Shown in pieces: positions 1-17,754 of a DNA stretch of 21,984 nt. Both the position numbers and the translations under genes were made by a program. Source of the DNA: a virus; the IMG/VR virus record IMGVR_UViG_3300006805_001739, positions 1 to 21,984 of that record. One strand, written 5' to 3'. The notes beneath the pieces are model-generated. The model did no database searches. It was not told the origin of the DNA and worked only from the letters and a program-made list of their open reading frames with translations. Positions within the stretch are counted from its first letter, which is position 1. Every line of letters starts with the position of its first letter.

Positions 1-3000
1 CTAATGCTGCTTCATTTGAAGAGGAATACGATAATCAAGCAGACATTATAGAGGGTGAACTCAGAGGAGAACCTACACCTACTGAAGCTGAACCAAGTAC
101 ACCTGAACCAACGGTAGAAGATACTCTCACAGCTAAGCTAGAGAAAGCTAAAGAAGATGCCTTAAATGAGCTAGAAGACTTATTTAAGGAAGCAGGGAAA
201 GGTCTCAAGCAGAATGCTGATCCAGTACTGATAACTAAGATCATGGCTGCTACAGTTAAGCTTACTGGTATCTACTTTGCATTGGGTACTATTAAGTTTG
301 CTGATTGGGCTAAAGCTATTCTTACTGATCTCAAGAAAAGAGGTGTAGATCCTGAAGATGTTAAGCCATTACTTAAACAGGCTTACTTAGCTACTGCTGC
401 GTCTTCAGAGGTTAAAGATGAAATACTTGATCAGATGGATGATGCTAAGACTGTACGTGCATTCGATATAGATAGTTTGTTACTTGGTTCAAAAGATACA
501 AAAGAAGTTCCTAAAGGTAATGGAGAAATCAAACTGAATGAGGGTCAAGAGAAAGCATTCAGTGAGATTATGACATTCCTTGAGAATACTGACCCAAGTG
601 TAAATACACATACCTTGATTGGTGCTGCAGGTACAGGTAAGACAACTATTGTTAATAGTATCCTTAAGGCTCTACGTGAAGCAGGAAGTGTCTATGGTAC
701 GGTTGTACTTACTTCTCCTACTCATCGTGCTAATACAGTTACCATGAGTAAGAATAAGAGTGAGAAAGTACAGACGTTACATAAACTACTTAATCTTTTG
801 CCCTGGATCGACTTAGATAAGTTTAGTGATTATGATTCCAGTAAGGTAACTTTTAAAAGGGGTGATAGTGAAGACGACACAGGATTCCCTAGTAGTGGGT
901 TAGTTATTGTTGATGAGAGTTCAATGATTGGAGACGATCTATATGACTTTCTTATCAAGAGTCTTGATGCTAATCCAGGTGTTAAGATTTTATTTTTAGG
1001 TGATGCAGCACAGTTACGTCCTGTATCTAAAAAGAATAAGAATGGTGAGCGAGTAGGTATCAAAGATGATGCAAAGGATTCTAAAGCATTAACTGAATCT
1101 AATAGTGTGTCTATTCTTACAAAAGTAGAAAGAGCTGAGAATAGTGCATTATTGGGTGAGTCTGTGTATTTGAGAAATGGGAAAGGAAACTTCTCTGATA
1201 CCAATAATATGACTGACTCTAATGGTGTTGTTTTCTTAAATGAAAAGAAAACTTTCATAGATAAAGTAGTGGATATGTTCAAGTCTAAGGAGTTCTTGAA
1301 AGATCCATTATTAGTTAGAGTAGTGGCATTTAGGAATGAAGTTATTAAGGATCTTAATAATAGAATTCGTGAAGGTATCTATGGTAAGAATCCACCTGAT
1401 TACGTTGTTGGTGAATTACTCTTAGGTTACAACGCTTATGGTAAAGCTAATCCAGGTGGGATACTACCTATCGCTAATGGTGTGGACTACATCATAGATA
1501 AGATTGGACCAACAGAAAGTAAAGAAATATTAGGTGTTTCGGTACTCACAGCAGAAATCACTTTTCATGACGTTTTTGGTTTAGCTAAATCAAAGAAATT
1601 ACGTTTCATTCTTCCATCAAATACTGAGGCTACATGGACTGCATTAGGTCTAGTAGGAGATAAGTTTCTTACTCATGATGCCAACGGTAAGTTTATACCT
1701 GAGAGAGATACTCGTGCACGATACAAACGTAAGAAACCTTTTGAAGAAGTATTAGGTGAGTATGTATTCCCTCGTGATATTGGTGTAATGGAAAAGAAAA
1801 AGGGAGATACAAAAGAGAAGCTACGTCCTATCCATAATCAAACTATTAACTATGGCTATGCACATACTATCCATAAATCTCAAGGTGGTACTTATTCTTA
1901 TGTGTTTGTGGAAGGTAGAGATATTGATTCACCTGATGCAGACTTGAATAAGAGACTTCGTTACGTAGGTACAACTAGAGCCAAGAAAGGAGCATTCATT
2001 TATGTTGGTCCTGGTGTAGCAATAGATACATCTAAACCTGTTACCTATCTATCCTTTACTCCTGCAGATGCTAAGGATAAATCAAAGGTAGAGACTCCGA
2101 TTATTGAGGAGACTCCTAAAACAGTTGATCCTATTTTGGGTGCTTACACCAATCACTCTGGTGGTGCGAAAGGCTATGATGCTGAGTGGGACATTATAGG
2201 ATCTGAGTTTGGTTTCAATAATAACAACCATTACTTATTACCTGTAGATGGTGATGTTGCAGATCCAAGATTGAAAGCTAAAGGTGTTAAGCCTGTAGAT
2301 GCTACAAAAGATATTGGTCAAGTGGCTGCTACTGGACAAGCGACAGGTGAGGCTCAGGTAGCTGTAACAGAAGCTGAAAGACTCATGGGCAGAATAGCCC
2401 CTAACCACACAACACGTAATACTAAGAAGATTAGAAACTATGCTCAGGTTAAGAATGCTGATGGTATTTTTGCTATTGGTTCCTTAATACCTAAAGGTGC
2501 AGAGATTACTATTGCACAAGGTAAAGAAACTAGAACTGCTTTAGTACCACAAGTAAATGGAGGTACAAGTGTTGCTGTACAGTTAGGTATTATGATGGGT
2601 AAGCCTACCTATGTATTTAACCAAGTAGAGAATGATACCTATGCAGAAGGATGGCATAAATGGGATGCAGCTAAAGAGGATTTTGTACCCACAGGCATAC
2701 CTGTACTGACTAAAAACTTTGCAGGTGTAGGCACATCATCAAATACAACAGAGCAAGGTAAGCAAGCTATCAGAGATGTGTATCAGAAGACTTTAGATTC
2801 CTTGAATGAATCAGAATCTAAGACTACTGGTACATCTATAGATGCTTCTAATATCTATGATAGATTGAATCCTAGTAAGACTGTTACAGAGAATGTAGCC
2901 TTAGAGTCATGGTCTAATCTTAAAGATGCTACTGAAGCCATTACTGATAAAGCAGTTATTTCTACTCGTATTAAGGGTTCTAATGAACATTTTGGTAATC

Positions 3001-6000
3001 CATTTAGCTCTACAGTAGCAGGGTTAATCAAGACTAAGAGTACAGAAGAGAGTGTAGTACGTTACCTTGATTGGATCCTATCTGAGACTACAGATATCAA
3101 CCCTGAGCAACATGCTTGGATCAGAGAGCAACTCAAGTCTCAAGCATTAGTGGGTAAACCTATCCTTTATTACAAAGAATTGGGTGAACCATCTCATGCT
3201 AACGCTTTAGATTACTTAATCAATACTGAGTTTAAAGTTGATCCAGAAGTTGCTACCGAGACTCAAACTATCAATCCTGAGTATCGTGGTAAGGTTATTC
3301 TTGCTCATGCAGGCACAGGTAAGAGTTTTGCTACTAAGTCTAATCCAGACATTGTTGATGGTGATGTACTGTACTATCAAGCAACGAATACAATTATTGA
3401 TAAGTACAATAAAGCCAATGGAGAGAATGTACCTAAGATTAAAGATGTAACAGGTACTCGTGGTGTATTTGATGCTTGGGGTGAATATGGAGATAAAGCA
3501 GCTATTCAAGCATTAGAAGTTCTTAAGGTTAGTAACAAAAATGTTGTAGGCGAACTCAGTAAAGTTACACCTACTGATGTAGCCAAGTGGAAGAAGTCAT
3601 TACTAGGTGGTGACAGTGACACCAAAGCTATTGCTACCTTAGAGAAGTATTTAGTTAGCAAGACTGAGATAGATAGTCGTAAAGCTGAAGCTATAAGACG
3701 TAGAAATGAGATCTATCAAGAATATGCTAAGCAAGCAAGAGCATTAGCTGACTCAGGTAAGACTGTGCTTTCGTCTTCTATTCGTCCTGAGTTAATAGCT
3801 GTAGCAGATATAGTTATTGCACAGAATGATGTTAATTTCATTGCTAAGAACTTAACCAGTAGTGAACGAGTAAATCAAAACAGTGAGGTAGATCTTGGTA
3901 AGATTCAGAAGAAGATAGATAAAGCTATACGTGTAGAAGGTGAATTAGGTAATAAAGGTAAGCGTATTACTTTAAAGAACCTAGGTGATAAGCAATTCAT
4001 ATCAGATCTACTGTTTGGTTCAGATGAGGTCATAGCAGAGTCTGTAATTGATGAAGGAGTGTCAGTACATGGTAAGCCTAAGCTTATGTCTAAGCCTATT
4101 AGAGAGATTGATAATGAGCTTCCTGTGGGAGGTATGAGTGTATTCACTGGAGCAGCTAATGTTACCCCACGTGAGAGACAAGCAGCTCAAGCTAAGATTA
4201 TCAACTCACCCAATACTACAGAGACAAAAGTAGTAGCTCCTATAAAGCGTAAGGATGGTTCTACTACTCCAGGTAGGACAACGAAGATTGAGATATCTGG
4301 CTTACAAAAAGCTAATTTAGTTGTAGCTAGTTTCTATCAGAAAGCTAAGTCTAATTCTGTTGTAGTAGCTATTAAAGACTTCTTTACTACTCACTTCTCT
4401 AATGACACTTCAGCTAATGAGTTCTTAGATAAGTTCTTAGGTAGACCTGCTACACCTGAGGAATTAAATCTTATTAGGGTATTCAGGGATTTCCATACTA
4501 AGAGAATTCAACCTAATGTCAGATCATTACTTACAGGTTATGCACAATTAGGTGATTTTAAGCTTACTGATTATCTTACTTATTTGTTTCCTGATGAGGC
4601 AAATCCTTCATTAGATGAAAACATTGTTACTGCTATAAGTGCTGCAGCATTCTCATTCTTATTGGAGAAGTCAGGTAAGTTCACTCATGCAGAAGAAGAT
4701 GTAGCAGAGCTATTAGGGTTAGACGAGAAGACTCCTATCCCTCATGTAGTTATGAGACGTTATCAGAATGTTGGTAGCTCAAGGGCTGCTATTGTAAGTT
4801 ATCTAGGTAGAAGTATCTTTGAGACTCTCTCATTGAAAGTACAACAAGATGCTACAGAAGAACGTAAACAGAGAATGATCAATGCCTTTGGTTCATTGGC
4901 TTACAACATAATGGCTAAAGAAGGATTACTTCAAGTTACTGAGGTACTTAATAGTGTGGTGGCAGGTGACATAGCTCGTGTTACTGGTCAGACTACTGAC
5001 CACACAGTTAAGAATGATGAAACATTAAAAGGTGATCATGTTAGAGGATTCACTACTTATGCACGTGTTGCTTATGATACTAAAACCAAGAAAAGTAAAC
5101 GTGGTGATTGGTTATATGAGAATAACGCTAAGCTACGTCCAGATATTCAAGAGTATAAAGATGCAGCTAGAGGTGTCTCTTCTGTATTAAACAACCTCTT
5201 TGGTATTACCAACGTAGATACTGCTCCATTGTTCAAAGAACCAAAAGGATTGAACCAAGAGTCTACTGATCAGTTAGGTACACAAGTACCTTCAGCACTC
5301 AAAGACAATACTGAACAGATGATGAAGAAGAAGTACGTACCAAATGGTGATACGTACAAAGCTATGCTTCATTTGAGGGATAACAACACAGAAGCTTTAG
5401 AAGCGATGATAGGCGTAGTATCTGATGAAGACATAGCAAAGATGCATGTCACTCAGAGAAGCTCTGTAATCAGCACTAATGAGGGTCTGAGACGTAGTTT
5501 AGAGAATGGTCTTGCTTTTGTTAGTTCTGTGCCTACCACAGAAGGTCAATATGCTCCTATCTACTTACCTATGAAAGTATGGGTACTTAATCGAGTAGGT
5601 GTTACTTCTAACTTGTTTAATGAACAAGGAGACAAGGTACATCGTGCACTCACAGTAATGAGCCAACATGTTCAAACTATTGCTGCTACCCAGCCTTTAG
5701 TAAATGGTGAGATATCCCTTGTAGGTAGAGCACTACTTGGTGCTGCTGCATACATGGAAGAGATCACATTATCTATTGGTAAGGTGGCAGTAGATAAGAC
5801 TGCAGCAAGTGTCTATTTACCTGCATTGATGGAATATCTATCACTGGATCGAGTGAGTTCTGCTATTGCTTCTTATGGTAAGTTACAAGACGGTACTGCA
5901 ACAATGGAAGACATTACTGCAGTGAGAGACCTAGTCATTGAGTTTGGTGGTGGAGCTATGTCTCTTGCATCAGTCAATGTGCTGTATCAACTATCTACTA

Positions 6001-9000
6001 TTAAGGATGGTAAAGCTACACTCAAGACTGAAGGAGAAGTAACTACTAATGTTGCTATTGGATCAGATGGTGTAACTAATGGTATGGCTCTCTCTATGCT
6101 TGTTTATGGTATTGGGAGACCTAGAAATAAACAGGGAGCTACAGTTAACAGTCTACACAATGCAGCAGGTTATTTTTATGTAGGAGATAAACAAGAGACT
6201 CTAATGGCGTATCGTAGTAGTGGTGCTGATGATTTGTATCAGCAACTAGCTAGGATTCAAAAAGACCTATGGAACACACTAGTTACTAATAATAGAAACC
6301 CTGTAGAGCAAGCTAAGCATGCTGCTTTAGCTTTCTTTGATCCTAAGTTTGGTGAGAGAGCAGGAGCAAAGGTAGGCTTAGTACCCTTTGTTTATGGTTC
6401 AGGTTTCACTTCTATTAAGGCAGCACAGTCACGTGCATTCATCAGCTCTATCTACGCTACTATGGCTAAGTTAGCTAGTAGTAATGGTGGTAATCCTACA
6501 ACAGCATCTATAGTCGAGTTTGATACCCACTTGTCTGCTCTATTGGGTAAGCCTGAAACATTTTTAACGAATGCTGTTTTAGCAGCTAGGGAAGGTTTAA
6601 CAGTTAAAGAGGAGCTTATTAAGGCTAAGGTAGATGCCATTCTTGAGACTGAATTGACTCCTAATATGATTGATAAGATTACAGAAGTTGAGTCAGGTAT
6701 AAGGGGTACCATCACACAGAATGCAATGAAAGTCATGTCAGGAGATTTGATTGCTGCTCGTGGTAGAGTCAATAACTTAGCCAGTTTAGGCTTTGACATC
6801 TTTAAAGGTTTGTTTGACTTCACTCGTGATGAGACTTTAAAGAACCTAGAATCTCAAGGGTTAACTAAGTATCGTGTAGCTCAAAATGGCGATAGAATAA
6901 CTTTAGAAGGTCTTACTGTTAAACAGATGGATCGTCTAATGGCTGATCTAAATAAGTATGGTCCTGTTGTAGTCTCTGTTGCAGGTACTTATTCAACTAA
7001 TCCAGTTGAGTCAGCTCATGCTATGTACATTGTAACTAAGGTACCTCAGACTGCTGAATTACCTGTTTCTAAGTTACATATCAAAACTCAGTTTGATATT
7101 AAACACACACCTAACAGTGCTACTGTGCCTACATTCAGTAACTTTGAATCTCCACTATACACAATCACTATTGAGTACAGAGGTCCTGCTAATAACGCTT
7201 CTATTGTTCAAGCTATGGATGCTTGGGTAACTACTCAGGTATCTTCTAAGTTTGATGCATTGAACCACCATGATGAGAATGCCTCAGGGGTTACTGAAGC
7301 TGTCGCTATGGCCCAGTTCCAAAACAAAGTATTGTTTGATGCAGCACTCCAGTATGGTGTGTACAAAGAAGTATTAAGGGGTTCTTTATTCAGACCACTT
7401 AGAGGGATTATCAAATATGGTGAAAGCTCTACAGGTAAAGAGACTGATGCATCTTCTGAGTTAGCTAGACGTAACTTTGCTGTAGAGCTGAGCAAAGGAA
7501 CTTTTAGTAGCTTAAAACAATATGCAGATGAAAACTTTAATATCAAAAATAAAACTAGTTACTCTGACTTATTAAAAGCCATTGTTACTGCAATGTATGA
7601 CGTAGAGGTTAATAAGGTTTCAGCCTTAAAAGGACTATCTGCGATATCCCAGTACAGCTTAGAAGGTGGTGAGTACAAGATAACACCTAGAGATAAGCAA
7701 GCTATAGAAGATAAAATAGCTGCTTTAAAGGAAGAGTTAGCTTTGGACTTAGAGGTAGCTACTAAGTTAGGTAAAGACTTAGATAAGCTTTACTTCAGTA
7801 CTATTACTACGCCTAAAGCTCAAGCTAAACCTGAGGTAGTTAGAACCATTGGTTCAAATGGTAGAGTGACTCAACGTAGTACTAAAAAGATTAAGTTCAG
7901 AAGAGCAGGTGATCAAAGCAACATATTGAATCCTGTTTACTTGGGTAATGATTTCCTTGTAGTAAATGACGGTATAGTTGATGTAGCGGCATCTATTGCC
8001 AATATAGACTTCAGTGGTACTTACATGGACTCTGCATTAGGTAAGGCAATGCTTAAGCTGATACTCAGTAGTTTACCTAAAGGATTAACAGTTCAGTATT
8101 TAACTCCTGATAACGTAACACCTGATATGGCTAAAGCTTTGGTAAATCCTAATGCTAAAGATTCAGCAGTGGATAAGCTATCCAGAGGCGACTCATGGTA
8201 CTACAACAACAATATTGTAATAGCTGTTGATGGTAGAGGTCATGCTGTCAGTCTGATACATGAATTAGTTCATGCTGTTACTTCTGCTACTGTAGGTATA
8301 GGTGGTGATCCTAATACCATTGATGCCTTTACCAGACTATCCGATAGACTGAAAGAGTATGCAGCAGATAACGCAGCTAGTATCAGTCCCCATACCTTGA
8401 AGAAGATTGAGTATGCTACAGGTAAGTTAAGTGAGTTCATTACAGTCATGCTCACTGAGCAAGACGTATTTGAATTAGCTCGTAAGATTCCTACTTCTCT
8501 TAAAACTAGAACCAGAAGTGCTAATACAAAAGGCATGGCTACTCTATTAAAGGACTTCCTTACTGTAATAGCTGATTACTTTAGATCTAAAGTAAATGCA
8601 GCAAAAGACAGTTTAAATGGTATGGAATCTTTGTTGGAATCTACGTTAGTTATCGCTATGGATGCTATACAACTCAACAAGACTTACTTTGATTCAGGTA
8701 CTAGTGAAGACTTTGAAGGGGAGTTAGATAATGACTTGGATAATAAGAAAGCAGATGCTGTAAGACTTGTAACAGAGTTTAGAGCACAAGAGGTATTTGA
8801 AGCATTACCTTCTTCTGGTGACTTAGAAGCAGACCAAAGACTATCAGCTTTAATGTTATCCATTATTGATAGTACATATACCCCTATATCCAACTCAAGA
8901 GCAAATACTACTTACACTCCTAATGAAGTATGGGGTAAAGCCATTAGTGAAGGTAGAACGCCTTATGGTACTGGAGCGATAGCTGCAGGATTTGAGTTGA

Positions 9001-12000
9001 GTCAGCGTGAGTTGTTTGCTATTGAAGCATTAGAAGTCACTGTGAAGGGTGTTATTGATTCAGGTATAGTAAGTCCTGCATACAAAGAACTCTTAAAAGT
9101 TTTTGATACAGCCAAGACTGTATTAAGTGCAAAAGACTTCCATAAAGGTGATTGGTCTAAAGCAACTGAGCATCAAAAAGAAGTTGCTGAAGCTAAGCAT
9201 AGATACCTATTCAACATTGCTCAAAGTGCCAATGGTAGAAGTGACTTCATGAGTAAGTTTGTTGCTATGGCTCTAGGTAGTCATGAAGTACATGCATTAC
9301 TTACTTTCAGTGAAAAGAAAGCTAAAGCTAAGGATTCTACTTTACTTTCTAAAATTGAAGCTATGTATGAACATGCATTACGTTGGGTATCTGGATACTT
9401 AACAAATACGTCTACTTACCAACAGGCTAAGGATAAATTACCTATCTTGGTTCGTAATCTTGTGGATATTGATCATAAGAAGAGAGATCAAGCAGTTGGT
9501 AATGTGTTTGATAAATTGAATGTGGGTGTAGGTAAACTAGATAAGTTCATTAAAGAACGTGGAAATAAACTAGATGCTTCTTTAACTAAGCTGGTTGATG
9601 GTACTAAGTATCCTCGTATTGCAGGTGTAACTAAGACTGCAGGTATCATTGCAGGTGGTAGGGCAATGGACTTACTTGACTTGGCTCAACAGTACAGAGA
9701 TCTAGCTAATCCTGGTAAGCCTCTTGGATGGAAGGCTGAAATACTCAATGAGATGGCTACACCAAGCAAAGCTAAGCAGGCTGTATTGCGTTTACTACGC
9801 AGATATACCTTGATTCAGACTGGACGTAAGAATCACTCTAGTACGACTGTAGAGGCTCTCCTTGAGAGTTTTGCTGATGGTGGTATGAAACTATCTAAGA
9901 GTGATAAAGAAGCTCTTACATACGGTGTATTGCGTACAGATATGCAGGTATTGTTCTCTAAGTATGGTCGTATAGGTTTAAGAAGACTCTTGAGTTCTCC
10001 TCAATTCTTGGATCAAAGAATTCAAGAACTAGAGGTTGATGTCACTGATCCTCTACATCGTGTAAGAGTTAAAGACTTAGCCTTCTACATGACTACAGGT
10101 GAGACAAATGACATGCTTGCAGAGAATGCATTATCTATTGCTAGAAATGTAGGTATGCAGACTGTAATGAAAGAGTCTGAGGTTGATCCAGACTACTTAA
10201 GTAAACTGGATGAGTTAATCTCTTTAAGAGCTTTAGAGTACATGGATACTCATCATAAAGACTCATTGATTAAGATCATGGATATTGAGAATGCTCGTAC
10301 AGAGGGTAGTGCTAATGGTGTAGAAACACTTATGCGTTACCACAAGCGTATTCAAGAAGATGCTAAGGATGCGCTCTATGAGGGTAATACTACTGCATTT
10401 GTTAAAGGATACATTCCTGATATCACAGATCCCCATAGAGAGATCAAAGTAGTTACTACAGAGGCAGAAAGAAAACAGATGAAGGATATGGGTTATACGT
10501 TTGTAAGAGCGTATAGATCTCATCCCTCTGAGCCTGGTGGTGGTACTCGTTATGTTTACGTGACTGAAGCATCTAGTAAAACTAGATACGTATCAGGTGC
10601 AGTGAGTATGACAGGTAAGGTTAAGAATGGTACGTCTATATTCGCTAACAGTGACCTATCTTATGTGGGCGAACACAACGTCATCAGAAGGGAAACTGAC
10701 TTAGCTAGAGAACGTATTCTTAACATCAATCCTAGCAGCTATGATCCAAGAGTAGATGGTACTAGAGGTGTTGCTCCTACCTACTCTAATGGAGGTACTA
10801 TCATTGACTTTAGATACGTACATTCTCATGCCACTAAAGATTCCTTGCTAAGTCGTAACAATAACTTTGCTAAGGTTCTAGGTGCATTTGCAGGTTCTAA
10901 CTTTGATAAGGTTAGTACTTCTGATCATAACAAAGCAGTAATAGATGTAATCACTGCTGACTATCAAGAGAACTATACTAGGTATCCTAGATCCTTTGTG
11001 GAAGTAGGACCTGATTCACCTGATCCTAGAGTACGTGCAATGTACTTCATGTTACCTGAAGATACTCGTAACTACGTACAGTCTATCTGGGGTAAAGGAA
11101 CACCTATGTATATTCGTAATACTTTGCTTTTACCCTTATTTGGTACTAGTAAGTATACGATTGGCTTAGCTTTTGATAAAAACCCAGAGCTACGTAATCT
11201 ACCTGAGAGAATTATTACAGGTGTATTTAGTGCAGTGTTTAAGGACACAGCTAAGTTACGTGCTCTACAAGCAGAGACACTAAACCAATCTTTAGTTAGC
11301 TGGTATAAGAGTACTGTGGTTATTAGAAACTTAACTACCTTAATGGGGAACCAAGCAAGTAATACAGGTATTCTTTTAGCGATGAATGTACCTGCTACAG
11401 ATATCTACAGAAATAGTGTATTGGCATACAGAGCAGGTATGGATTACATGAGTGATACCAGAGAGTTAATCAGAGCACAGAATGCAATGAACACTGGTAT
11501 AGGTAATGCTGCTGTACATCTACAGACTATTCGTAAGCATAGTGATTCATTGGCTCGTAATCCTCTTAAAGAGTTCTTAGATGCAGGTATGTTGACTACG
11601 ATTGTAGAGGATGTATCTCTTGAGATTAACGATTATGAGTATAAGAGTAGACTAGAGCAGAAGATTGACGATCAACTAGATAAACTTAATCCTACTATAC
11701 GTAAGATTGGTGCTACCTTATTAGTTGCTCCTAGTACTGAGTTGTATCAGAAGTTAGCTACATTAACTCAGTTATCTGATTTTACTGCTAAGTATGTTCT
11801 TTATAGCCACATGCGTAATAAATCTGAGGAGAAATTGAGTCATGAAGATGCATTAGCTTTAGCCGATACTGTTTTCATTAACTACGATGTACCTACGTCA
11901 ATGGAACTTCAGTATGGTAATGATATGGGTTTCTTAATGTTTACTAAGTACACCTTGCGTGTTCAACGTGCAATGGCTTACTTAATTAAGAACCATAAAG

Positions 12001-12170
12001 GAGGATTGTTTGCTCAGCACCTGTTGGCTAATACTTTAGGTATGCCTGCAGCTACTATTCCATTATTTATTAACCAACTGGGTAATCCACTACAACCTGG
12101 AGGATTAGGTGCAGTAGGTGCACTAAATCAACCACTACCTATTAAAATGCTACTAGGTGGAATCAACTAG
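1..12170 (+). CDS. Giant virion RNA polymerase-like protein with N-terminal SF1 helicase (5' partial)
   Basis: The frame is open from base 3 to the TAG at 12168-12170, giving 4,055 residues in the window; the start lies upstream. Residues are counted from the codon at base 3. Residues 20-40 form a Pro/Thr/Glu-rich linker. An SF1B RecD/Dda-like helicase follows: Walker A GAAGTGKTT (207), DESS (about 304), GDAAQLRPV (333), HKSQGGT (624) and YVGTTRA (654). A SLOG-like domain spans about 714-933 (HSGGAKGYD, NADGIFAIG, NGGTSVAVQ). A DUF4326-like domain spans about 984-1075 (GNPF, SHANALDYL). A kinase-like P-loop is AHAGTGKS (1101). The T7/N4-type RNA polymerase covers about 1440-2580: NRVG region (R1864), motif A DGVTNG (D2022), motif B R2119-x3-K2123-x7-Y2131-G, motif C HHDEN (D2424). 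Zincin HELVH is at 2753 with a possible third ligand E2811. The C-terminal 1,200 residues have no enzyme motif I recognise and end in a Gly/Pro/Leu-rich tail. N4 packages a 3,500-residue polymerase of this type in its virion; virion location here is inferred. The polymerase and helicase calls are firm, the smaller domains less so. Confidence 0.88.
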   Translation, partial: NAASFEEEYDNQADIIEGELRGEPTPTEAEPSTPEPTVEDTLTAKLEKAKEDALNELEDLFKEAGKGLKQNADPVLITKIMAATVKLTGIYFALGTIKFADWAKAILTDLKKRGVDPEDVKPLLKQAYLATAASSEVKDEILDQMDDAKTVRAFDIDSLLLGSKDTKEVPKGNGEIKLNEGQEKAFSEIMTFLENTDPSVNTHTLIGAAGTGKTTIVNSILKALREAGSVYGTVVLTSPTHRANTVTMSKNKSEKVQTLHKLLNLLPWIDLDKFSDYDSSKVTFKRGDSEDDTGFPSSGLVIVDESSMIGDDLYDFLIKSLDANPGVKILFLGDAAQLRPVSKKNKNGERVGIKDDAKDSKALTESNSVSILTKVERAENSALLGESVYLRNGKGNFSDTNNMTDSNGVVFLNEKKTFIDKVVDMFKSKEFLKDPLLVRVVAFRNEVIKDLNNRIREGIYGKNPPDYVVGELLLGYNAYGKANPGGILPIANGVDYIIDKIGPTESKEILGVSVLTAEITFHDVFGLAKSKKLRFILPSNTEATWTALGLVGDKFLTHDANGKFIPERDTRARYKRKKPFEEVLGEYVFPRDIGVMEKKKGDTKEKLRPIHNQTINYGYAHTIHKSQGGTYSYVFVEGRDIDSPDADLNKRLRYVGTTRAKKGAFIYVGPGVAIDTSKPVTYLSFTPADAKDKSKVETPIIEETPKTVDPILGAYTNHSGGAKGYDAEWDIIGSEFGFNNNNHYLLPVDGDVADPRLKAKGVKPVDATKDIGQVAATGQATGEAQVAVTEAERLMGRIAPNHTTRNTKKIRNYAQVKNADGIFAIGSLIPKGAEITIAQGKETRTALVPQVNGGTSVAVQLGIMMGKPTYVFNQVENDTYAEGWHKWDAAKEDFVPTGIPVLTKNFAGVGTSSNTTEQGKQAIRDVYQKTLDSLNESESKTTGTSIDASNIYDRLNPSKTVTENVALESWSNLKDATEAITDKAVISTRIKGSNEHFGNPFSSTVAGLIKTKSTEESVVRYLDWILSETTDINPEQHAWIREQLKSQALVGKPILYYKELGEPSHANALDYLINTEFKVDPEVATETQTINPEYRGKVILAHAGTGKSFATKSNPDIVDGDVLYYQATNTIIDKYNKANGENVPKIKDVTGTRGVFDAWGEYGDKAAIQALEVLKVSNKNVVGELSKVTPTDVAKWKKSLLGGDSDTKAIATLEKYLVSKTEIDSRKAEAIRRRNEIYQEYAKQARALADSGKTVLSSSIRPELIAVADIVIAQNDVNFIAKNLTSSERVNQNSEVDLGKIQKKIDKAIRVEGELGNKGKRITLKNLGDKQFISDLLFGSDEVIAESVIDEGVSVHGKPKLMSKPIREIDNELPVGGMSVFTGAANVTPRERQAAQAKIINSPNTTETKVVAPIKRKDGSTTPGRTTKIEISGLQKANLVVASFYQKAKSNSVVVAIKDFFTTHFSNDTSANEFLDKFLGRPATPEELNLIRVFRDFHTKRIQPNVRSLLTGYAQLGDFKLTDYLTYLFPDEANPSLDENIVTAISAAAFSFLLEKSGKFTHAEEDVAELLGLDEKTPIPHVVMRRYQNVGSSRAAIVSYLGRSIFETLSLKVQQDATEERKQRMINAFGSLAYNIMAKEGLLQVTEVLNSVVAGDIARVTGQTTDHTVKNDETLKGDHVRGFTTYARVAYDTKTKKSKRGDWLYENNAKLRPDIQEYKDAARGVSSVLNNLFGITNVDTAPLFKEPKGLNQESTDQLGTQVPSALKDNTEQMMKKKYVPNGDTYKAMLHLRDNNTEALEAMIGVVSDEDIAKMHVTQRSSVISTNEGLRRSLENGLAFVSSVPTTEGQYAPIYLPMKVWVLNRVGVTSNLFNEQGDKVHRALTVMSQHVQTIAATQPLVNGEISLVGRALLGAAAYMEEITLSIGKVAVDKTAASVYLPALMEYLSLDRVSSAIASYGKLQDGTATMEDITAVRDLVIEFGGGAMSLASVNVLYQLSTIKDGKATLKTEGEVTTNVAIGSDGVTNGMALSMLVYGIGRPRNKQGATVNSLHNAAGYFYVGDKQETLMAYRSSGADDLYQQLARIQKDLWNTLVTNNRNPVEQAKHAALAFFDPKFGERAGAKVGLVPFVYGSGFTSIKAAQSRAFISSIYATMAKLASSNGGNPTTASIVEFDTHLSALLGKPETFLTNAVLAAREGLTVKEELIKAKVDAILETELTPNMIDKITEVESGIRGTITQNAMKVMSGDLIAARGRVNNLASLGFDIFKGLFDFTRDETLKNLESQGLTKYRVAQNGDRITLEGLTVKQMDRLMADLNKYGPVVVSVAGTYSTNPVESAHAMYIVTKVPQTAELPVSKLHIKTQFDIKHTPNSATVPTFSNFESPLYTITIEYRGPANNASIVQAMDAWVTTQVSSKFDALNHHDENASGVTEAVAMAQFQNKVLFDAALQYGVYKEVLRGSLFRPLRGIIKYGESSTGKETDASSELARRNFAVELSKGTFSSLKQYADENFNIKNKTSYSDLLKAIVTAMYDVEVNKVSALKGLSAISQYSLEGGEYKITPRDKQAIEDKIAALKEELALDLEVATKLGKDLDKLYFSTITTPKAQAKPEVVRTIGSNGRVTQRSTKKIKFRRAGDQSNILNPVYLGNDFLVVNDGIVDVAASIANIDFSGTYMDSALGKAMLKLILSSLPKGLTVQYLTPDNVTPDMAKALVNPNAKDSAVDKLSRGDSWYYNNNIVIAVDGRGHAVSLIHELVHAVTSATVGIGGDPNTIDAFTRLSDRLKEYAADNAASISPHTLKKIEYATGKLSEFITVMLTEQDVFELARKIPTSLKTRTRSANTKGMATLLKDFLTVIADYFRSKVNAAKDSLNGMESLLESTLVIAMDAIQLNKTYFDSGTSEDFEGELDNDLDNKKADAVRLVTEFRAQEVFEALPSSGDLEADQRLSALMLSIIDSTYTPISNSRANTTYTPNEVWGKAISEGRTPYGTGAIAAGFELSQRELFAIEALEVTVKGVIDSGIVSPAYKELLKVFDTAKTVLSAKDFHKGDWSKATEHQKEVAEAKHRYLFNIAQSANGRSDFMSKFVAMALGSHEVHALLTFSEKKAKAKDSTLLSKIEAMYEHALRWVSGYLTNTSTYQQAKDKLPILVRNLVDIDHKKRDQAVGNVFDKLNVGVGKLDKFIKERGNKLDASLTKLVDGTKYPRIAGVTKTAGIIAGGRAMDLLDLAQQYRDLANPGKPLGWKAEILNEMATPSKAKQAVLRLLRRYTLIQTGRKNHSSTTVEALLESFADGGMKLSKSDKEALTYGVLRTDMQVLFSKYGRIGLRRLLSSPQFLDQRIQELEVDVTDPLHRVRVKDLAFYMTTGETNDMLAENALSIARNVGMQTVMKESEVDPDYLSKLDELISLRALEYMDTHHKDSLIKIMDIENARTEGSANGVETLMRYHKRIQEDAKDALYEGNTTAFVKGYIPDITDPHREIKVVTTEAERKQMKDMGYTFVRAYRSHPSEPGGGTRYVYVTEASSKTRYVSGAVSMTGKVKNGTSIFANSDLSYVGEHNVIRRETDLARERILNINPSSYDPRVDGTRGVAPTYSNGGTIIDFRYVHSHATKDSLLSRNNNFAKVLGAFAGSNFDKVSTSDHNKAVIDVITADYQENYTRYPRSFVEVGPDSPDPRVRAMYFMLPEDTRNYVQSIWGKGTPMYIRNTLLLPLFGTSKYTIGLAFDKNPELRNLPERIITGVFSAVFKDTAKLRALQAETLNQSLVSWYKSTVVIRNLTTLMGNQASNTGILLAMNVPATDIYRNSVLAYRAGMDYMSDTRELIRAQNAMNTGIGNAAVHLQTIRKHSDSLARNPLKEFLDAGMLTTIVEDVSLEINDYEYKSRLEQKIDDQLDKLNPTIRKIGATLLVAPSTELYQKLATLTQLSDFTAKYVLYSHMRNKSEEKLSHEDALALADTVFINYDVPTSMELQYGNDMGFLMFTKYTLRVQRAMAYLIKNHKGGLFAQHLLANTLGMPAATIPLFINQLGNPLQPGGLGAVGALNQPLPIKMLLGGIN

Positions 12171-12388: not shown

Positions 12389-12759
12389 TTCAAGCTACGT
12401 GCAAACACAGAATCAACACTCACAGGTGCTTCATCTTCGTCTTCATCTTCCTCTACTACAGGTACATAAGCTGCAACTAATGTATCTTCCTTATCTTCAT
12501 AGAGGGACTTAGGATCTACTTGATCCTTTGGTTCTTCTACTTCTTTGCTCTCTGCTGCAATCTCTGCTGCTGTACGTCTCTTACGTTTAGTAGTAATAGG
12601 TTTGCTTGGGTTGCTACCTGTTACCTCAGCAGAGATGAGGAATGCACCACCTGTGGTTGTTGTTACTGTGATTGTTGTTTCAATACCCAGTACTTCATCA
12701 ATATGCTTTGATAAAGCTTCTTGAATATCATTTGGTTCAATCGTTACTAAGACTTGCAT
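12385..12759 (-). CDS. Unknown protein with basic patch and acidic tail, 124 aa
   Basis: I do not recognise this protein. Residues 1-50 look like a small alpha/beta unit (MQVLVTIEPNDIQEALSKHI, then a Thr-rich strand and AFLISAEVTG). A basic patch TKRKRR lies near residue 57 and is followed by an Ala/Glu-rich helix. The C-terminal third is strongly acidic (EEDEDEDE near residues 103-110). A basic patch followed by an acidic tail would fit a nucleic-acid or protein-partner contact, but this is inference only. The ATG is preceded by AAGGAAC with 8 nt between AGGA and the start, a good ribosome site. The gene overlaps the end of the RuvC-like gene by 13 nt and its TGA overlaps the next ATG, which places it firmly in the leftward operon. 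Confidence 0.8.
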   Translation of the reverse strand: MQVLVTIEPNDIQEALSKHIDEVLGIETTITVTTTTGGAFLISAEVTGSNPSKPITTKRKRRTAAEIAAESKEVEEPKDQVDPKSLYEDKEDTLVAAYVPVVEEDEDEDEAPVSVDSVFARSLK

Positions 12760-13295
12760 AGGAATAGTTCCTTAAATTGTTTTGAAAGTAACCCTACATG
12801 AGCTGCAACAATAGCATCTGCTATGTGTTCTGCTTTACTCATGTTGAGTTCGTTATGGTGTTGAGGGAATGTGTAGTATGGGTGTGTTTTCTGAACCCAC
12901 TTTACTATCTGCTTTTTAGAAGTGTTTCCCCAACCTACGAGTTTCTTTACTTGGTTCGGTGTTACTTCAATGAGGGGCATCTCATATCTGAGTGAACCAA
13001 GAATACTAATACAGATACCATAGCCTACTGATGCCCTAGCACTTTGACTTCCTGTTGGAATCTCAGCAATAGATAGGGATGGTTTGTATGTGTGATATAG
13101 CTCTTGTATTCGTGTGTAATGGTGAGTAGCTGAACTAAGGTCTCTTTGGTTAGGTCTTCTAATATTGATGGATGGAGTATGCTGTAGGACCTCTGTATGT
13201 AATACAGTTAACTGAGTGGTTTCACAATCGTAGTCAATAACAGCAATACCCCAATTCCTTAAACTTGGATCATGGCTAATGAGTCGTAGGTTCAT
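12747..13295 (-). CDS. RuvC-like Holliday junction resolvase, RNase H fold
   Basis: The 182-residue product has the acidic residues expected of RuvC-type resolvases: D9 in a first strand (RLISHDPSLRNWGIAV), E78 after a second strand (SLSIAEIP), and a C-terminal HIAD (H157, D160) leading into an Ala-rich helix. A lysine pair in NTSKKQ (127-128) sits where related enzymes carry basic DNA contacts. Such enzymes resolve four-way and branched junctions made during phage replication and recombination, often before packaging. The frame could open at a GTG at 13322, but that codon has no ribosome site. The ATG at 13295 has GGAA 9 nt upstream and puts the catalytic strand at the N-terminus as in the family, so I chose it. 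It overlaps the preceding gene by 20 nt and the next by 13 nt. The superfamily is clear; the exact subtype is not. Confidence 0.78.
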   Translation of the reverse strand: MNLRLISHDPSLRNWGIAVIDYDCETTQLTVLHTEVLQHTPSINIRRPNQRDLSSATHHYTRIQELYHTYKPSLSIAEIPTGSQSARASVGYGICISILGSLRYEMPLIEVTPNQVKKLVGWGNTSKKQIVKWVQKTHPYYTFPQHHNELNMSKAEHIADAIVAAHVGLLSKQFKELFLCKS

Positions 13296-13560
13296 CTGGT
13301 GTAGTTCCAAAAGGTAAGTCACCTACGCATTCAATAGCAAAAGCTATACCTGCTAGGAAGGCAGTACGTTGATCAGGATCAAGATCCTTATCTACTTTTA
13401 CTGGTTCACCTTTGGTGTTAATACCATCTACTGTAATAGCAACAACTACATCATCAGGGATATCTAAGGTATGGTTTAACTTAGCTACTACTGTGTTGTA
13501 CCATTGAATGATTAAATGACCCATCTGTTCTACAGATTCAATAGGTTTTGTTTCTGACAT
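13276..13560 (-). CDS. Unknown small acidic protein, 94 aa
   Basis: I do not recognise a family. The protein has an N-terminal amphipathic helix (about residues 8-30, GHLIIQWYNTVVAKL), a central beta-like stretch (DDVVVAITVDGI) and a more hydrophobic segment (AFLAGIAFAIECVG, about 67-80) that is too short and mixed for a confident membrane helix. It starts at an ATG at 13560 with AAGAG 9 nt upstream. Its TAG at 13276 lies inside the start of the resolvase gene, so the two are probably translated together. It follows the probable ssDNA-binding protein gene after a 50-nt gap that holds a hairpin. Context suggests a role in DNA metabolism, but nothing in the sequence shows it directly. Confidence 0.72.
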   Translation of the reverse strand: MSETKPIESVEQMGHLIIQWYNTVVAKLNHTLDIPDDVVVAITVDGINTKGEPVKVDKDLDPDQRTAFLAGIAFAIECVGDLPFGTTPDEPTTH

Positions 13561-13610: not shown

Positions 13611-14324
13611 TTATTCTTCGTCAAATAAAGAAGTGGTAGCAACTGGAGCTGTGGATGCAGCACCTAATGTATTTTGTGCTTCAACTGGTTTGAAGTTATC
13701 TACATCTTTACCATCATTCTTCTCTAACCAAACTGCTTGAAATTCAGCAGGTACATTAGCATTCAGCTCAACAATGGTTTGATTAGTCTTAGCATTGAAT
13801 ACTTTATCAATGCGATTAGACTGCTTCATATCATTGGTAGGTACATACTCATCACCAGATTTAACTGTCTTGTTTTCTAGTACACGTAGTACACCTAATT
13901 TAACAGGCTTACCTAATGCTTCTGTGTAAACTGGAACCGAAGTAGGTACTTCTTGTTTGCTTACTGGATCACGTAATTTCACCATTTTAGCTTTAGGTGT
14001 GAGCTCATGTAACTGCTTACCTGTAGCCATAACAGCAAGAGAGTTAGCAGTAAGGAAGTCTGCTAAATAAACTTCTTTACCCTCTTTATCAGTGTAAGTT
14101 GTTTTCTCTTTACCTGATTTCTTAGAAGTAGGATAGATAACAGTTTTAAGCTTCTTACCATCTACTGTTTCAAACTCTAAGTTAAAGGCTAAGCCTCCTT
14201 TACGTGTGCGTGTTTCATACCACATTTTAATAATCATGTTGTAAACACTTGATGGTAATGCAGCGAATCCACCTAAGGTGTCTTTCTCTGCTTGTGCTTC
14301 TGCTACGGGTGCGAAAATACTCAT
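13611..14324 (-). CDS. Probable single-stranded DNA-binding protein, 237 aa
   Basis: The N-terminal two thirds resemble phage ssDNA-binding proteins: a short lead, an LGGFAALPSSVYNMII segment, then beta-rich stretches (GLAFNLEFETVDG, KLKTVIYPTSKK) as expected of an OB fold. Lysine-rich loops could contact DNA. The last 25 residues are low-complexity and end in SLFDEE, an acidic tip with a hydrophobic residue, which is typical of SSB tails that recruit replication partners. It lies in a recombination cluster two genes from a Sak4-like ATPase, and SSB genes often pair with Sak4. The ATG at 14324 begins 5 nt after the HNH gene; GGAT about 9 nt upstream is a modest ribosome site. The family call rests on overall pattern and context rather than on a catalytic motif. 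Confidence 0.68.
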   Translation of the reverse strand: MSIFAPVAEAQAEKDTLGGFAALPSSVYNMIIKMWYETRTRKGGLAFNLEFETVDGKKLKTVIYPTSKKSGKEKTTYTDKEGKEVYLADFLTANSLAVMATGKQLHELTPKAKMVKLRDPVSKQEVPTSVPVYTEALGKPVKLGVLRVLENKTVKSGDEYVPTNDMKQSNRIDKVFNAKTNQTIVELNANVPAEFQAVWLEKNDGKDVDNFKPVEAQNTLGAASTAPVATTSLFDEE

Positions 14325-14329
14325 AAAAT

Positions 14330-14854
14330 TTATCCGTTGTTGTGGGATCCATGATTGTCATGGAATCCTAGTTCTTTAAGTTTTGCTTCTCGTGCAATCA
14401 TTGCACTAGTCGCATCTGGGAATTTGCTTTGGAATACCTTCTTACCATTCAGCTTGATTTCAGCAATCCAACGCTGTCTAGTCTTACAGTACCAAATACC
14501 TTGCTCACCTGAAGAGGTGTTTCTTCTCGCACTTTGGTTTCTAGTGTTTTCGGATTGAGAGATGTCCCTTAAGTTTTCTATTCTGTTATCAGCTTTGTCA
14601 TGGTTAATATGATCTATTACCCCATCAGGGAACTTATCATTAAATAGGAGCCAGACTAGATGATGCTCACGGTAAACGTGTTTGTTAATGCCTACTAATC
14701 TGTAACCTGAAGTCTTGCATAGACTACCTGCTCTGGTTCCTATTACCCTTGTCTTAGCTGTGCCCTTTGAAATCCAGTAGAGATGACCTGTCTTAGCTTC
14801 ATACCGTAATAGCTTCATCAGTTCATCTTTAGTTAGATTGTACTTACTATGCAT
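14330..14854 (-). CDS. Freestanding HNH homing endonuclease with AP2 DNA-binding domain
   Basis: The 174-residue protein has an HNH core at about residues 60-106: H64/H65 in VYREHHLVWLLF, then D81-H82 in GVIDHINHDKADN, then NRIENLRD with N90 and N94, matching the HNH_3 type common in phages. Residues 117-163 match an AP2-like DNA-binding fold (GIWYCKTRQRWIAEIKLNGK, then an Ala-rich helix). This pairing is typical of homing endonucleases that cut related phage genomes lacking the insertion and spread by repair. It overlaps the Sak4-like gene by 8 nt, ends 5 nt before the next gene, and has only a weak GAG ribosome site, so it looks like a mobile gene wedged between two recombination genes. No intron or split host gene is visible around it. 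Confidence 0.9.
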   Translation of the reverse strand: MHSKYNLTKDELMKLLRYEAKTGHLYWISKGTAKTRVIGTRAGSLCKTSGYRLVGINKHVYREHHLVWLLFNDKFPDGVIDHINHDKADNRIENLRDISQSENTRNQSARRNTSSGEQGIWYCKTRQRWIAEIKLNGKKVFQSKFPDATSAMIAREAKLKELGFHDNHGSHNNG

Positions 14855-15581
14855 CGTGGAACTCGTGTAAACGATTTAAGAGTAACTGTGCATCATTGTC
14901 GATGAATGTTTCTTCAAGTGTCCACATACCCATCGTTCCTCGAATACGCTCTCCTATGGTGTCTTTGGTGAGCTGTGTTTGGAATACATGCTTGTATCCC
15001 AACATCTCGTCCATAGGTGTAATCTTAAGTAATGGATTTGCGTATGGAGCTAGTGATTCAAGACTCATCTTCTTCGCTGCTACTACACAACTAAACATGG
15101 ACTCAATACCTACATTCTTTAATGCACCTTTGATAGGTACACTGGTAGTCATGTTCAAGGTATTTTGATCGTAGTTAGTCAATGTATGAGCTAGAAAGAT
15201 CATGTTCTTCTTTGATGGTGCTACACGTTGCTGCATCATGTTTCTAAAGAACTCTGCATAGTTACTCCAACCTGCCATCTTATCTTTAGCAGGTAATACG
15301 TACAGAGATTCATACATGTCCATTAAGAATGTCAGTGTATCAATTACAACAGTATGTACTTTCTCTGTCTGTTCAGCATATTGAAACAACTCAGGGATAT
15401 GCCTTACTGGATCAGTAACATTGATCTCTTTAAACTTGGATCGAAAAGGTAATCGTTTACCTGCTTCACAGCATGCATACAATACACCCTCTGGGTTTGC
15501 TAGTGTATGAAGACTAGCTGACTTACCTGCAGCAGATGGTCCACAGATAAGTACTAGATGGTCGTTAATTACAGCCGTCAT
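14847..15581 (-). CDS. RecA-core ATPase of the AAA_24/Sak4 type
   Basis: This 244-residue P-loop ATPase has Walker A GPSAAGKS at residues 14-21, a Walker B strand TVVID ending at D81, and a sensor-like FLAHT at 129-133. Length and layout match the phage nucleotide-binding family AAA_24, which includes Sak4: a RecA/Rad51 core without extra domains that promotes single-strand annealing with its partner SSB. Here the likely SSB lies two genes downstream, separated only by a mobile HNH gene. It probably acts with the PD-(D/E)XK nuclease and RuvC-like resolvase of this cluster in recombination-dependent replication. The start at 15581 has GAGG 7 nt upstream. A DnaB- or RadA-like role is less likely because the C-terminal domains of those proteins are absent. 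Confidence 0.85.
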   Translation of the reverse strand: MTAVINDHLVLICGPSAAGKSASLHTLANPEGVLYACCEAGKRLPFRSKFKEINVTDPVRHIPELFQYAEQTEKVHTVVIDTLTFLMDMYESLYVLPAKDKMAGWSNYAEFFRNMMQQRVAPSKKNMIFLAHTLTNYDQNTLNMTTSVPIKGALKNVGIESMFSCVVAAKKMSLESLAPYANPLLKITPMDEMLGYKHVFQTQLTKDTIGERIRGTMGMWTLEETFIDNDAQLLLNRLHEFHDA

Positions 15582-15627: not shown

Positions 15628-17754
15628 TTAAATACCAAGTTTCTTAGCAACAGATTGCATGATGGTCGCATACAACTCAGACTCAGCTAACTTGTCAGGT
15701 ATCTTATCGTTTAAGCCACATACTGCAGCACGTACCTGTTCAAAGGTTTTACCTGCATCTACCAATACCATAGCGTACTTGTGTAACTGCACATTACGAT
15801 TGCCATCTCCAATGTTATTGATTACCCATCGTTCTAGGTTATCTAAGTTACTTTGCTCTAAGGCTCTTTTTGCAGTACGTTCTGCTTCAGTAGTTTTAGG
15901 TATGAATCCCAATACATCGAATAGACTGCCATCATTAGTGAATACCTGAGTAGCGTGGTATGTCTGCCATTTCTTGCAGCGATGATTACCTGCTTCATCT
16001 ACAGCAAAAGGTAAAGCTAAGAATACGTTATGCATGAACTGCTTGTAGTCTTGCTCTTCCAAGTAAAGCTCATAGTTGATAGGTAAGATAATGCGATATC
16101 TATCTTGATCTTCAATACCATGAGACTTTGTTGTATAGATGGTGTACTTGTAATCCTTTAATAGAAGTTTAGCTGTAGAGAGTGGACAAGTATTATCAAC
16201 ATCTAATACAAGCATATTGAAGCCACTAATAATATTACGCTCTAATCGGTATCCATCTCTTACACGATGGTTGAGCCAATGTAATGTACCCTTAAAGGTT
16301 AACATCTTACTCAAGTCTTCAAACTTGACTATGCTATTTATATAACCTGAAGTCATATCTTCACTGTAAGACAGGATGCACTTATCAAGATTTGTTGGTT
16401 GAATAGCTGTAGCACTAACGAATTGAATCCCATCAGTGAAAGCTTTTTTAATGATGATATTATTCTTATAGCCCCATGAGGTAGCCATAGTAATCATCTC
16501 TTCTTTCATCTGCTTGGTTCCACGAAAGTAAGCCAAGTCTGTATCTAAATCTGCTAGTGTTAATTCACCAGTGTACTCAGCTAGATGTTTAGCTAACTTT
16601 ACGTAAGGACGTTCTGGTGTAACCAATTTACTTAGTGACACACCTGATTCAGTAGCCAATGCAATAGCATAGTCTAAGTGGGTGGAAGTAATAACAGGAG
16701 ATCCCTCAAAGAATGCATAAGCACCTGCTAATTTCAGTACCTTAAAGTAACGATGGTCTACTTCAGCTTTACGAATAGAGTCCTGCTTAGTATAGGTACG
16801 ACCTTCTGCTTCACAGTCTAATTTGTATTGCATTAACTTCAGGCACTCAGGTCGCTCTATTAAGATCTTGGTTCCCATGTTTACAGGATTGGCTAATCTA
16901 GCAAACTGATCAGTTAGATCTTCAATCAACTGAAGATTAGTTTGATTAAACATATTGTCTAATAAATCTTCTGCAGTTAATTCTAAGTTCTTTGTTGCTT
17001 CAGAAGCTGAACCAAAGAAACATCGTCTACCCATACCCATGTCTAGGAGTTCAATGAACTTAGTTTCTGTTTGACCTCCATCAAGTAGCTTACTAGGTAC
17101 ACCAAAAAGAAGCATATTGGCAGGAGTAGCTCCATCCATACGTTCTGTTCTTAGGTTGTCTGAGGAAGACTTAATTAGTTTCTCTTTGATTAAGCCTTTA
17201 TCGTATAGCTCTAGGAATGTGGTAAGAGGTTCTACGTTGTTTAATAGGTTAGCACCTACTTCATCAATACATAGATTGAGACTACCAACTCCACTGAGTA
17301 ATAGTTTGTGTCGTAGCTGTTTAATAGCAGGAGTAGTTGCACTATCGAATGTGAATAGCATGGCACCAATACTAGAGAATTCTTTCTTTAGTTTTGTGAG
17401 CTCTTCGTCTTCTGTTGTGTTGTTACGAATACTACGTTCACCTGCTAACTTCACTAGGTTACGTTCAGCAAAATCAGGGAATGTTTGTTTCATGAATATC
17501 TTACTGAATTCACTTAATAACTCACCTTCGATGATTGAAGTAGCATAGCCTTTACCTGCACCAGATTCAGCTACGTTAATAGCGTAAACATTGATTGGTA
17601 TAGTTGTGTTTGACCATCCAGTAATGGATGCTCGCATGTGTGAAGCTACGACTCCTAAGAAGTAGGCTAGTTGAGTTCTAAAGAACAGTCTTTCTGTGTT
17701 TTGTGTACGAGCAGATAGTACATCTACAATCTGCTCCATTACTGGATGATGCAT
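15628..17754 (-). CDS. ATPase-primase fusion, archaeo-eukaryotic primase type
   Basis: The 708-residue protein has two halves. Residues 1-380 are a DUF3987-like P-loop ATPase: Walker A ESGAGKG (63-69), Walker B LNLCIDEV (D164, E165), LLFGVP (215-220), and a likely arginine finger in GMGRRCFF (R243/R244). Residues about 480-620 look like an archaeo-eukaryotic primase (AEP) core: MLVLDVDN (D518, D520), TKSHG (S544, H545), RYRIILPI (552-559) and FAVDEAGNHR (D586). Residues 642-708 resemble the primase C-terminal domain PriCT (GDGNRNVQLHKYA onward). It probably primes and unwinds DNA at the phage fork. Helicase after primase is the usual order in prim-pol fusions; here the ATPase comes first. The ATG at 17754 has AGGAG exactly 7 nt upstream. 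The primase assignment rests on ordered motifs; whether the ATPase half is a true helicase is open. Confidence 0.78.
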   Translation of the reverse strand: MHHPVMEQIVDVLSARTQNTERLFFRTQLAYFLGVVASHMRASITGWSNTTIPINVYAINVAESGAGKGYATSIIEGELLSEFSKIFMKQTFPDFAERNLVKLAGERSIRNNTTEDEELTKLKKEFSSIGAMLFTFDSATTPAIKQLRHKLLLSGVGSLNLCIDEVGANLLNNVEPLTTFLELYDKGLIKEKLIKSSSDNLRTERMDGATPANMLLFGVPSKLLDGGQTETKFIELLDMGMGRRCFFGSASEATKNLELTAEDLLDNMFNQTNLQLIEDLTDQFARLANPVNMGTKILIERPECLKLMQYKLDCEAEGRTYTKQDSIRKAEVDHRYFKVLKLAGAYAFFEGSPVITSTHLDYAIALATESGVSLSKLVTPERPYVKLAKHLAEYTGELTLADLDTDLAYFRGTKQMKEEMITMATSWGYKNNIIIKKAFTDGIQFVSATAIQPTNLDKCILSYSEDMTSGYINSIVKFEDLSKMLTFKGTLHWLNHRVRDGYRLERNIISGFNMLVLDVDNTCPLSTAKLLLKDYKYTIYTTKSHGIEDQDRYRIILPINYELYLEEQDYKQFMHNVFLALPFAVDEAGNHRCKKWQTYHATQVFTNDGSLFDVLGFIPKTTEAERTAKRALEQSNLDNLERWVINNIGDGNRNVQLHKYAMVLVDAGKTFEQVRAAVCGLNDKIPDKLAESELYATIMQSVAKKLGI

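Follow-up and report, generated by a model that had tools for sequence, protein, structure and literature searches.

The Giant Frame and its Neighbours

The window, by which we mean the whole stretch of DNA analysed (a virus record 21,984 bases long), begins inside the gene of a giant virion RNA polymerase (vRNAP). The frame runs on the plus strand from position 3 to 12170 (3..12170) and carries cargo domains in its N-terminal part. Its 4,055 codons are not interrupted by a stop, which at the base composition of the window would occur by chance with a probability of about 10^-122. Since the contig starts within the gene, with the 5' end off its edge, the true length of the protein may exceed the 4,055 codons seen. 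The ATG at position 243 was considered as a start and rejected: nothing ahead of it resembles a Shine-Dalgarno sequence, and the reading frame continues through linker-like sequence, without a stop, as far as the contig edge. A start upstream of this ATG appears more likely. The region that would hold the N-terminal lipid-binding domain of the vRNAP family falls outside the contig, at the same 5' edge. Although this end of the protein is missing, at least 1,390 residues precede the RNA polymerase (RNAP) domain.

Several unrelated enzymatic domains share this single frame, namely a helicase, a SLOG-like domain, a P-loop region, the RNAP and a zincin. The initial annotation had described a polymerase and an SF1 helicase in one frame of more than 4,000 residues, and the open frame bears this out. 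With more than these two domains, however, the protein appears to be a multi-domain, polyvalent vRNAP, whose ejection is a prediction.

Beyond the vRNAP gene, the opposite strand encodes RuvC, Gam, SSB, HNH, Sak4, primase and exonuclease proteins, which is the set and the order of Schitoviridae. The RuvC-like Holliday junction resolvase (12747..13322, minus strand, as are all the following) is also the neighbour of the vRNAP gene in Cbunavirus and Efbeekayvirus. The Schitoviridae single-strand DNA binding protein occupies 13611..14324. Between its gene and that of the Sak4-like ssDNA annealing ATPase (14847..15581) lies the HNH endonuclease (14330-14854), found in the same place in Pectobacterium phage Horatius. 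The Schitoviridae DNA primase (15628..17754) reaches up to 55% identity, with matches in 465 phage records, and the exonuclease (17765..18742; PHROG 2139) is of the PD-(D/E)XK type.

The Polymerase and C-terminal Domains

The N4-type single-subunit virion RNAP domain lies at 4200..7502 on the plus strand (residues ~1400-2500) and is recognised by PHROG, alignment and profile. Alignment with N4 gp50 places motif A (SDGVTNG) at 6063..6083, with the catalytic Asp at residue 2022, motif B (R..AK...YGSG; RAGAKVGLVPFVYGSG) at 6357..6404 and motif C (NHHDEN) at 7263..7280, with the catalytic Asp at residue 2424. The three motifs fit the family patterns DG[VI]TNG, R..AK...YGSG and hD, with the catalytic residues in place. 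The zincin HExxH motif (HELVH, 8259..8273), which corresponds to the C1 domain in N4 gp50, aligns as well. Both features of the family that follow the RNAP are present, i.e. the HExxH C1 domain and a long C2 domain. The C-terminal domain of the vRNAP (CTD; residues ~2910-4055, 8730..12167, by alignment) is the part best conserved with Schitoviridae, and the last 190 residues are up to 46% identical to the vRNAPs of this family.

The PHROG virion RNA polymerase matches residues 1354-4050 of the protein with E=0. From residue ~1400 to the stop, identity with the vRNAPs of Cbunavirus, Efbeekayvirus and Presleyvirus is 27-30% over ~2,600 residues. A profile of the RNAP core matches the N4 mini-vRNAP structures 2po4 and 3c2p at E=2e-14. 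Neither the window protein nor the reference Schitoviridae vRNAPs match the profile of the crAss RNAP (two-barrel, DxDxD). The polymerase motifs had initially been placed at 5592-7274; motifs A, B and C are indeed intact, but the extent must be revised, since vRNAP homology begins at residues ~1390-1435 (nt ~4200) and ends only at the stop codon. The polymerase part is, end to end, a bona fide orthologue of the Schitoviridae vRNAPs (N4 gp50 family). Searches of IMG/VR with patterns from the RNAP and the C-terminal part found no close relatives of it.

The Helicase Domain

Residues 157-669 (471..2009, plus strand) correspond to a Dda/RecD2-like SF1B helicase domain, detected by Pfam, PDB, PHROG and AlphaFold alike. 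Motifs I (621-647), Ia (711-731), Ib (774-791), II (909-926), III (999-1025), IV (1122-1142), V (1863-1898) and VI (1962-1985) are all intact, in agreement with the complete set of RecD/Dda-like motifs first reported at 621-1982. The Pfam matches are AAA_30 (E=5.9e-20) and UvrD_C_2 (E=1.3e-10). Searches against PDB sequences return Dda (E=1e-17), and those against PHROG a Dda-like helicase (E=6e-70). The AlphaFold model of the domain has a pLDDT of 86 and a pTM of 0.86, and its top PDB match by Foldseek is T4 Dda (3upu; E=1e-29, TM 0.79), so that the structural check proposed in the initial annotation came out in its favour for the helicase part. By motifs and fold, the domain is an SF1B helicase of the Dda/RecD2 group, with a predicted unwinding activity. 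The SF1B enzymes Dda and RecD2 translocate in the 5' to 3' direction, and T4 Dda displaces bound proteins.

Parts between Helicase and Polymerase

Three further parts separate the helicase from the polymerase, all encoded on the plus strand. The first is a DprA/SLOG-like domain (residues 695-945, 2085..2837; HSGGAKG motif), recognised from weak hits and from its crAss-type relatives. Its protein sequence is 76-78% identical over ~220 residues to the copies in crAss-type virion RNAPs. At the DNA level, positions 2145-2798 of the window are 76-79% identical over ~640 bp to the giant genes of L002, L003, L004, L005, L006 and L007. These crAss-type genes belong to genomes of 25 to 35% GC and, outside this stretch, have no relationship to the window. 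The domain behaves like a recently exchanged module. In the tree, the window copy belongs to a clade with crAss-type giants (100/99), apart from the copy of Klebsiella phage Pylas, to which it is 38% identical.

The Pylas copy, for its part, clusters with the one in crAss phage cr113_1 (90/90). Read with the standard code, the giant RNAP gene of cr113_1 (L078:4392-17378) contains 73 in-frame stops. Stop-codon reassignment is known in the crAss phage group and fits this observation.

The name DprA/SLOG is a lead only, taken from weak matches. The relatives of the domain in crAss phages carry a DprA-like annotation, and the Pylas copy gives a weak SLOG match. In a fold search of the region, the SLOG part was the only stretch of the 711-residue model predicted with confidence, and no match met the E 0.001 cut-off. 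The domain also occurs, without a helicase, in the vRNAPs of two cultured Schitoviridae, Klebsiella phage Pylas (L071) and Alteromonas phage PT15-A5 (L072). There it lies between the N-terminal domain (NTD) and the RNAP, the same place as in the window. In these two isolates the function of the SLOG-like domain could be tested.

The second part, a conserved domain (residues 945-1115, 2835..3347; HFGNPF...YLDWI...PSHANALDYLIN), has no Pfam match; it is kept in L004, L006 and L175, in the giant proteins or in their neighbours. The third, a P-loop region (residues ~1095-1390), bears the Walker-A-like motif HAGTGKS at 3306..3326. No relatives of this region (3285-4200, ~300 residues just before the RNAP) were detected in phages or in the fetched loci.

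A Second N4-type Fusion

A wider scan revealed a second, independent contig, IMGVR_UViG_3300001765_000124 (L293/L313), with the order NTD-helicase-RNAP-CTD. The Dda-like helicase of L293 stands ahead of the RNAP (profile E=1.6e-63); it comes after NTD sequence and downstream of virion structural genes. A search for homologues with the same domain order had been suggested at the outset, and this contig is the N4-type match. The N-terminal lipid-binding domain is found here, divided between two frames. The two overlapping NTD frames of L313 (6195-7595 and 7562-19267) reflect either a real frameshift or a sequencing error. L313 also has an additional stretch ahead of the helicase and, behind it, another HExxH (SHELAH), the second in this protein.

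We fetched 217 vRNAP frames, of which 103 are distinct and cover the RNAP start, 95 of them with at least 500 residues before the RNAP. In a profile search, a helicase was found in only one of these 103 other vRNAPs, that of L293. Complete vRNAPs have a median of 829 residues before the RNAP. No Pfam helicase is present in the eight reference vRNAP N-termini, those of N4 and seven other phages, which agrees with the earlier statement that N4 gp50 is not known to carry a helicase. A scan of genome contigs yielded 2 vRNAP loci, with the helicase fusion in neither. The vRNAP N-terminal parts of L066 (ORF from 3761) and L055 (ORF from 2558) are much longer than those of the family, motif A being at residues 2206 and 2530, respectively. 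That of L066 includes a Rho_N/SAP-like DNA-binding stretch (E=4e-4).

Related Helicases on crAss-type Polymerases

In the Crassvirales cr50_1 and cr118_1, a protein of ~4,800-4,950 residues has a helicase of the window kind at its C-terminus. The catalytic motif of these giants is of the GSDFDID type. L004, a contig built in the same way, gives a match to the phi14:2 polymerase of known structure (6vr4; E=2.4e-30). In deposited crAss records the giant is named helicase or exonuclease V. A survey was made of 80 viral loci fetched with the helicase alignment, i.e. of a sample selected by helicase similarity. All giant frames long enough to judge have a crAss-type RNAP, by motif or profile, with the exception of L237, which is cut off by the contig end; L184 and L192, short truncated frames, are outside this judgement. 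The crAss RNAP profile matches L164, L168, L207, L215, L218, L224 and L188. A DGVTNG sequence in the crAss-type giant L167 is without a vRNAP profile match and is taken as coincidence. A SLOG-like domain is found near the helicase in L004, L173, L176, L178, L184, L206 and L233, and the order in L233, helicase-SLOG-RNAP, is that of the window.

The helicase trees are quick searches, midpoint rooted, of this sample selected by helicase similarity. In them the helicases of the window and L164 come out as sisters (96-98%) inside a clade (99%) made up largely of crAss-type giants, and those of L293 and L234 are likewise sisters (97-98%). One shared origin of both N4-type fusions is rejected (AU p=2.7e-51). 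On this phylogenetic evidence the fusions of the window and L293 are separate acquisitions, each sister to a crAss-type helicase. Because there is a second N4-type contig and the combination is common among the unrelated crAss-type virion RNAPs, a helicase and a virion RNAP in one chain is, as far as these sequences go, a recurrent solution and not a singleton.

Proposed Role of the Helicase

It seems reasonably probable that the window encodes the ejected polyvalent vRNAP of an uncultured Schitoviridae-type phage, which opens its own template with an acquired helicase block. The vRNAP of this phage has gained, ahead of the RNAP domain, a cargo block with a complete Dda-like SF1B helicase. Orthology with N4 gp50 suggests that it is packed in the head. 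If it follows N4 further, its domains would pass one after another through the tail and an ejectosome (a gp51/gp52-like channel), and the protein, anchored by its NTD, would fold again in the cytoplasm on the DNA as it enters. There the helicase would most likely open the incoming duplex for the polymerase and expose or extrude single-stranded hairpin promoters. The early promoters of this phage lie outside the window. Because 5' to 3' movement of an SF1B enzyme on the non-template strand has the direction of transcription, the helicase could run ahead of the polymerase and the two could advance together. Dependence on host gyrase and SSB may be reduced in this way.

With N4 DNA as template, the N4 vRNAP is active after denaturation but not on the native form, and gyrase is believed to be required for the extrusion of its hairpin promoters (PMC12633501). 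The authors of its structure consider that the CTD may bind or unwind DNA, and the protein is proposed to stay in the ejectosome via its NTD (PMC12633501). A helicase in cis would meet an N4-type need for promoter opening. What argues most strongly for a connection with transcription is that selection has joined related helicases to virion polymerases in two unrelated lineages; this suggests that helicase and polymerase act in a common task at ejection. Against such a coupled role, most Schitoviridae vRNAPs do their work with no helicase attached, and cleavage by the HExxH domain could set the helicase free.

Alternatively, the vRNAP may be a vehicle and the helicase an uncoupled cargo that protects, repairs or clears the incoming DNA. 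It might strip host proteins, resolve R-loops or counter host defence, together with the DprA/SLOG-like domain and perhaps after release by the zincin domain. This is the main rival explanation because N4-like vRNAPs are described as polyvalent, with metallopeptidase, ART, lysozyme, PBECR and RNase domains but no helicase listed (PMC5512222). Polyvalent proteins often carry mutually unrelated activities (PMC5512222). The window also has its DprA/SLOG-like domain, another conserved domain and a P-loop, and in Pylas and PT15-A5 the SLOG-like domain is on the vRNAP without the helicase. The displacement of bound proteins by T4 Dda would suit such a cargo. However, in the sample selected by helicase similarity, the helicase is repeatedly on virion RNAPs of two unrelated lineages and not on other ejected proteins, which speaks for a connection with transcription. 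We consider the uncoupled cargo unlikely, though far from negligible.

It is distinctly improbable that the helicase serves as a motor for DNA entry, pulling or ratcheting the phage genome into the cell from within the ejectosome. N4 and T7 do draw in their DNA by transcription, and the N4 vRNAP is proposed to remain in the ejectosome through its NTD (PMC12633501). Yet SF1B helicases move along single strands, while the DNA that a phage ejects is a duplex, and the sequence offers no evidence for duplex translocation. Still less credible is that the phage relocated its own replication helicase, of the N4 gp37 type, to the vRNAP for an early start of replication. Schitoviridae do encode a stand-alone Dda-like helicase beside the DNA polymerase (N4 gp37, DS-1410Ws-06 and OLIVR1), but the fused helicases are apart from these, and an origin from the family's own gp37-type helicase is rejected by the AU test (p=5.4e-19).

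An artefact of assembly or sequencing, by which two genes or two phages became joined, can be practically dismissed: the window is a metagenomic contig and a portion of its N-terminal block has relatives in another phage group, but the frame is continuous, the codon-usage distance between the first 1,390 residues and the rest is 0.063 (compared with 0.078 for the two RNAP-CTD parts and 0.17-0.23 for the crAss-type giants), the SLOG stretch is only 77-79% identical to the crAss-type copies at the DNA level, the boundary of the block (residues ~1390-1435) is the natural NTD/RNAP border of the vRNAP family, and L293/L313, an independent contig, has the same design. Uniform codon usage and this second contig rule out a chimeric contig and speak against the sequencing error that the initial annotation had named as a possible refutation.

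Significance

The presence of the same helicase kind on the unrelated crAss-type virion polymerase suggests that injection of a transcription machine which can open its own DNA is common to several phages. A broader proposal, which we put forward tentatively and with more doubt than trust, is that such a self-unwinding ejected machine arose repeatedly. The structurally unrelated N4-type and crAss-type RNAPs would each have taken up helicases of one family, along with some shared accessory modules by exchange, and would carry out early transcription without host gyrase or SSB for promoter opening. N4 studies of promoter access in the incoming duplex have gone through host gyrase and SSB; a polymerase with a helicase in cis makes the promoter-opening step directly testable in vitro. 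That two unrelated polymerase lineages both carry the fusion suggests that ejected transcription machines follow a general design rule, and the related modules found in both suggest a traffic of cargo modules between Schitoviridae-type and crAss-type phages.

N4-like vRNAPs with a Dda-type SF1B or any other helicase are not listed by Iyer et al. 2017, whose helicases, SNF2-type SF2 and UvrD-like, are in other polyvalent proteins (PMC5512222). Our literature search found no report of a helicase on an N4-type vRNAP, no discussion of helicases on crAss-type RNAPs and no description of cargo-module traffic between the two phage groups.

Comparison with Known Systems

The Schitoviridae vRNAPs (N4 gp50 and those of Cbunavirus, Efbeekayvirus and Presleyvirus) have the same RNAP motifs, HExxH, CTD, order of parts and neighbouring genes as the window protein. 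In contrast, those examined have no helicase and ~830 residues (median) before the RNAP, whereas the window protein has at least 1,390, with helicase, SLOG-like, conserved and P-loop parts. The Crassvirales giants (phi14:2 gp66, 6vr4; cr50_1 gp059; cr118_1 gp14) are giant ejected early RNAPs, as is predicted for the window protein, many of them with the same Dda-like helicase and SLOG-like domain. However, their RNAP is of the two-barrel DxDxD type, unrelated to the single-subunit T7/N4 type of the window. The position of the helicase also differs, being usually C-terminal in the crAss-type giants (N-terminal in L175, L233 and the L218 group) and N-terminal in the window.

The SF1B helicases T4 Dda and RecD2 have their fold and motifs in common with the window helicase (Foldseek TM 0.79, 3upu). 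They are stand-alone enzymes of early replication or repair, while the window helicase is part of a virion polymerase. Polyvalent phage proteins, like that of the window, are multi-domain, predicted to be ejected, and combine an N4-like RNAP with a metallopeptidase and extra enzymes (PMC5512222). Unlike those listed in that paper, the window protein unites an N4-like vRNAP with a Dda-type SF1B helicase.
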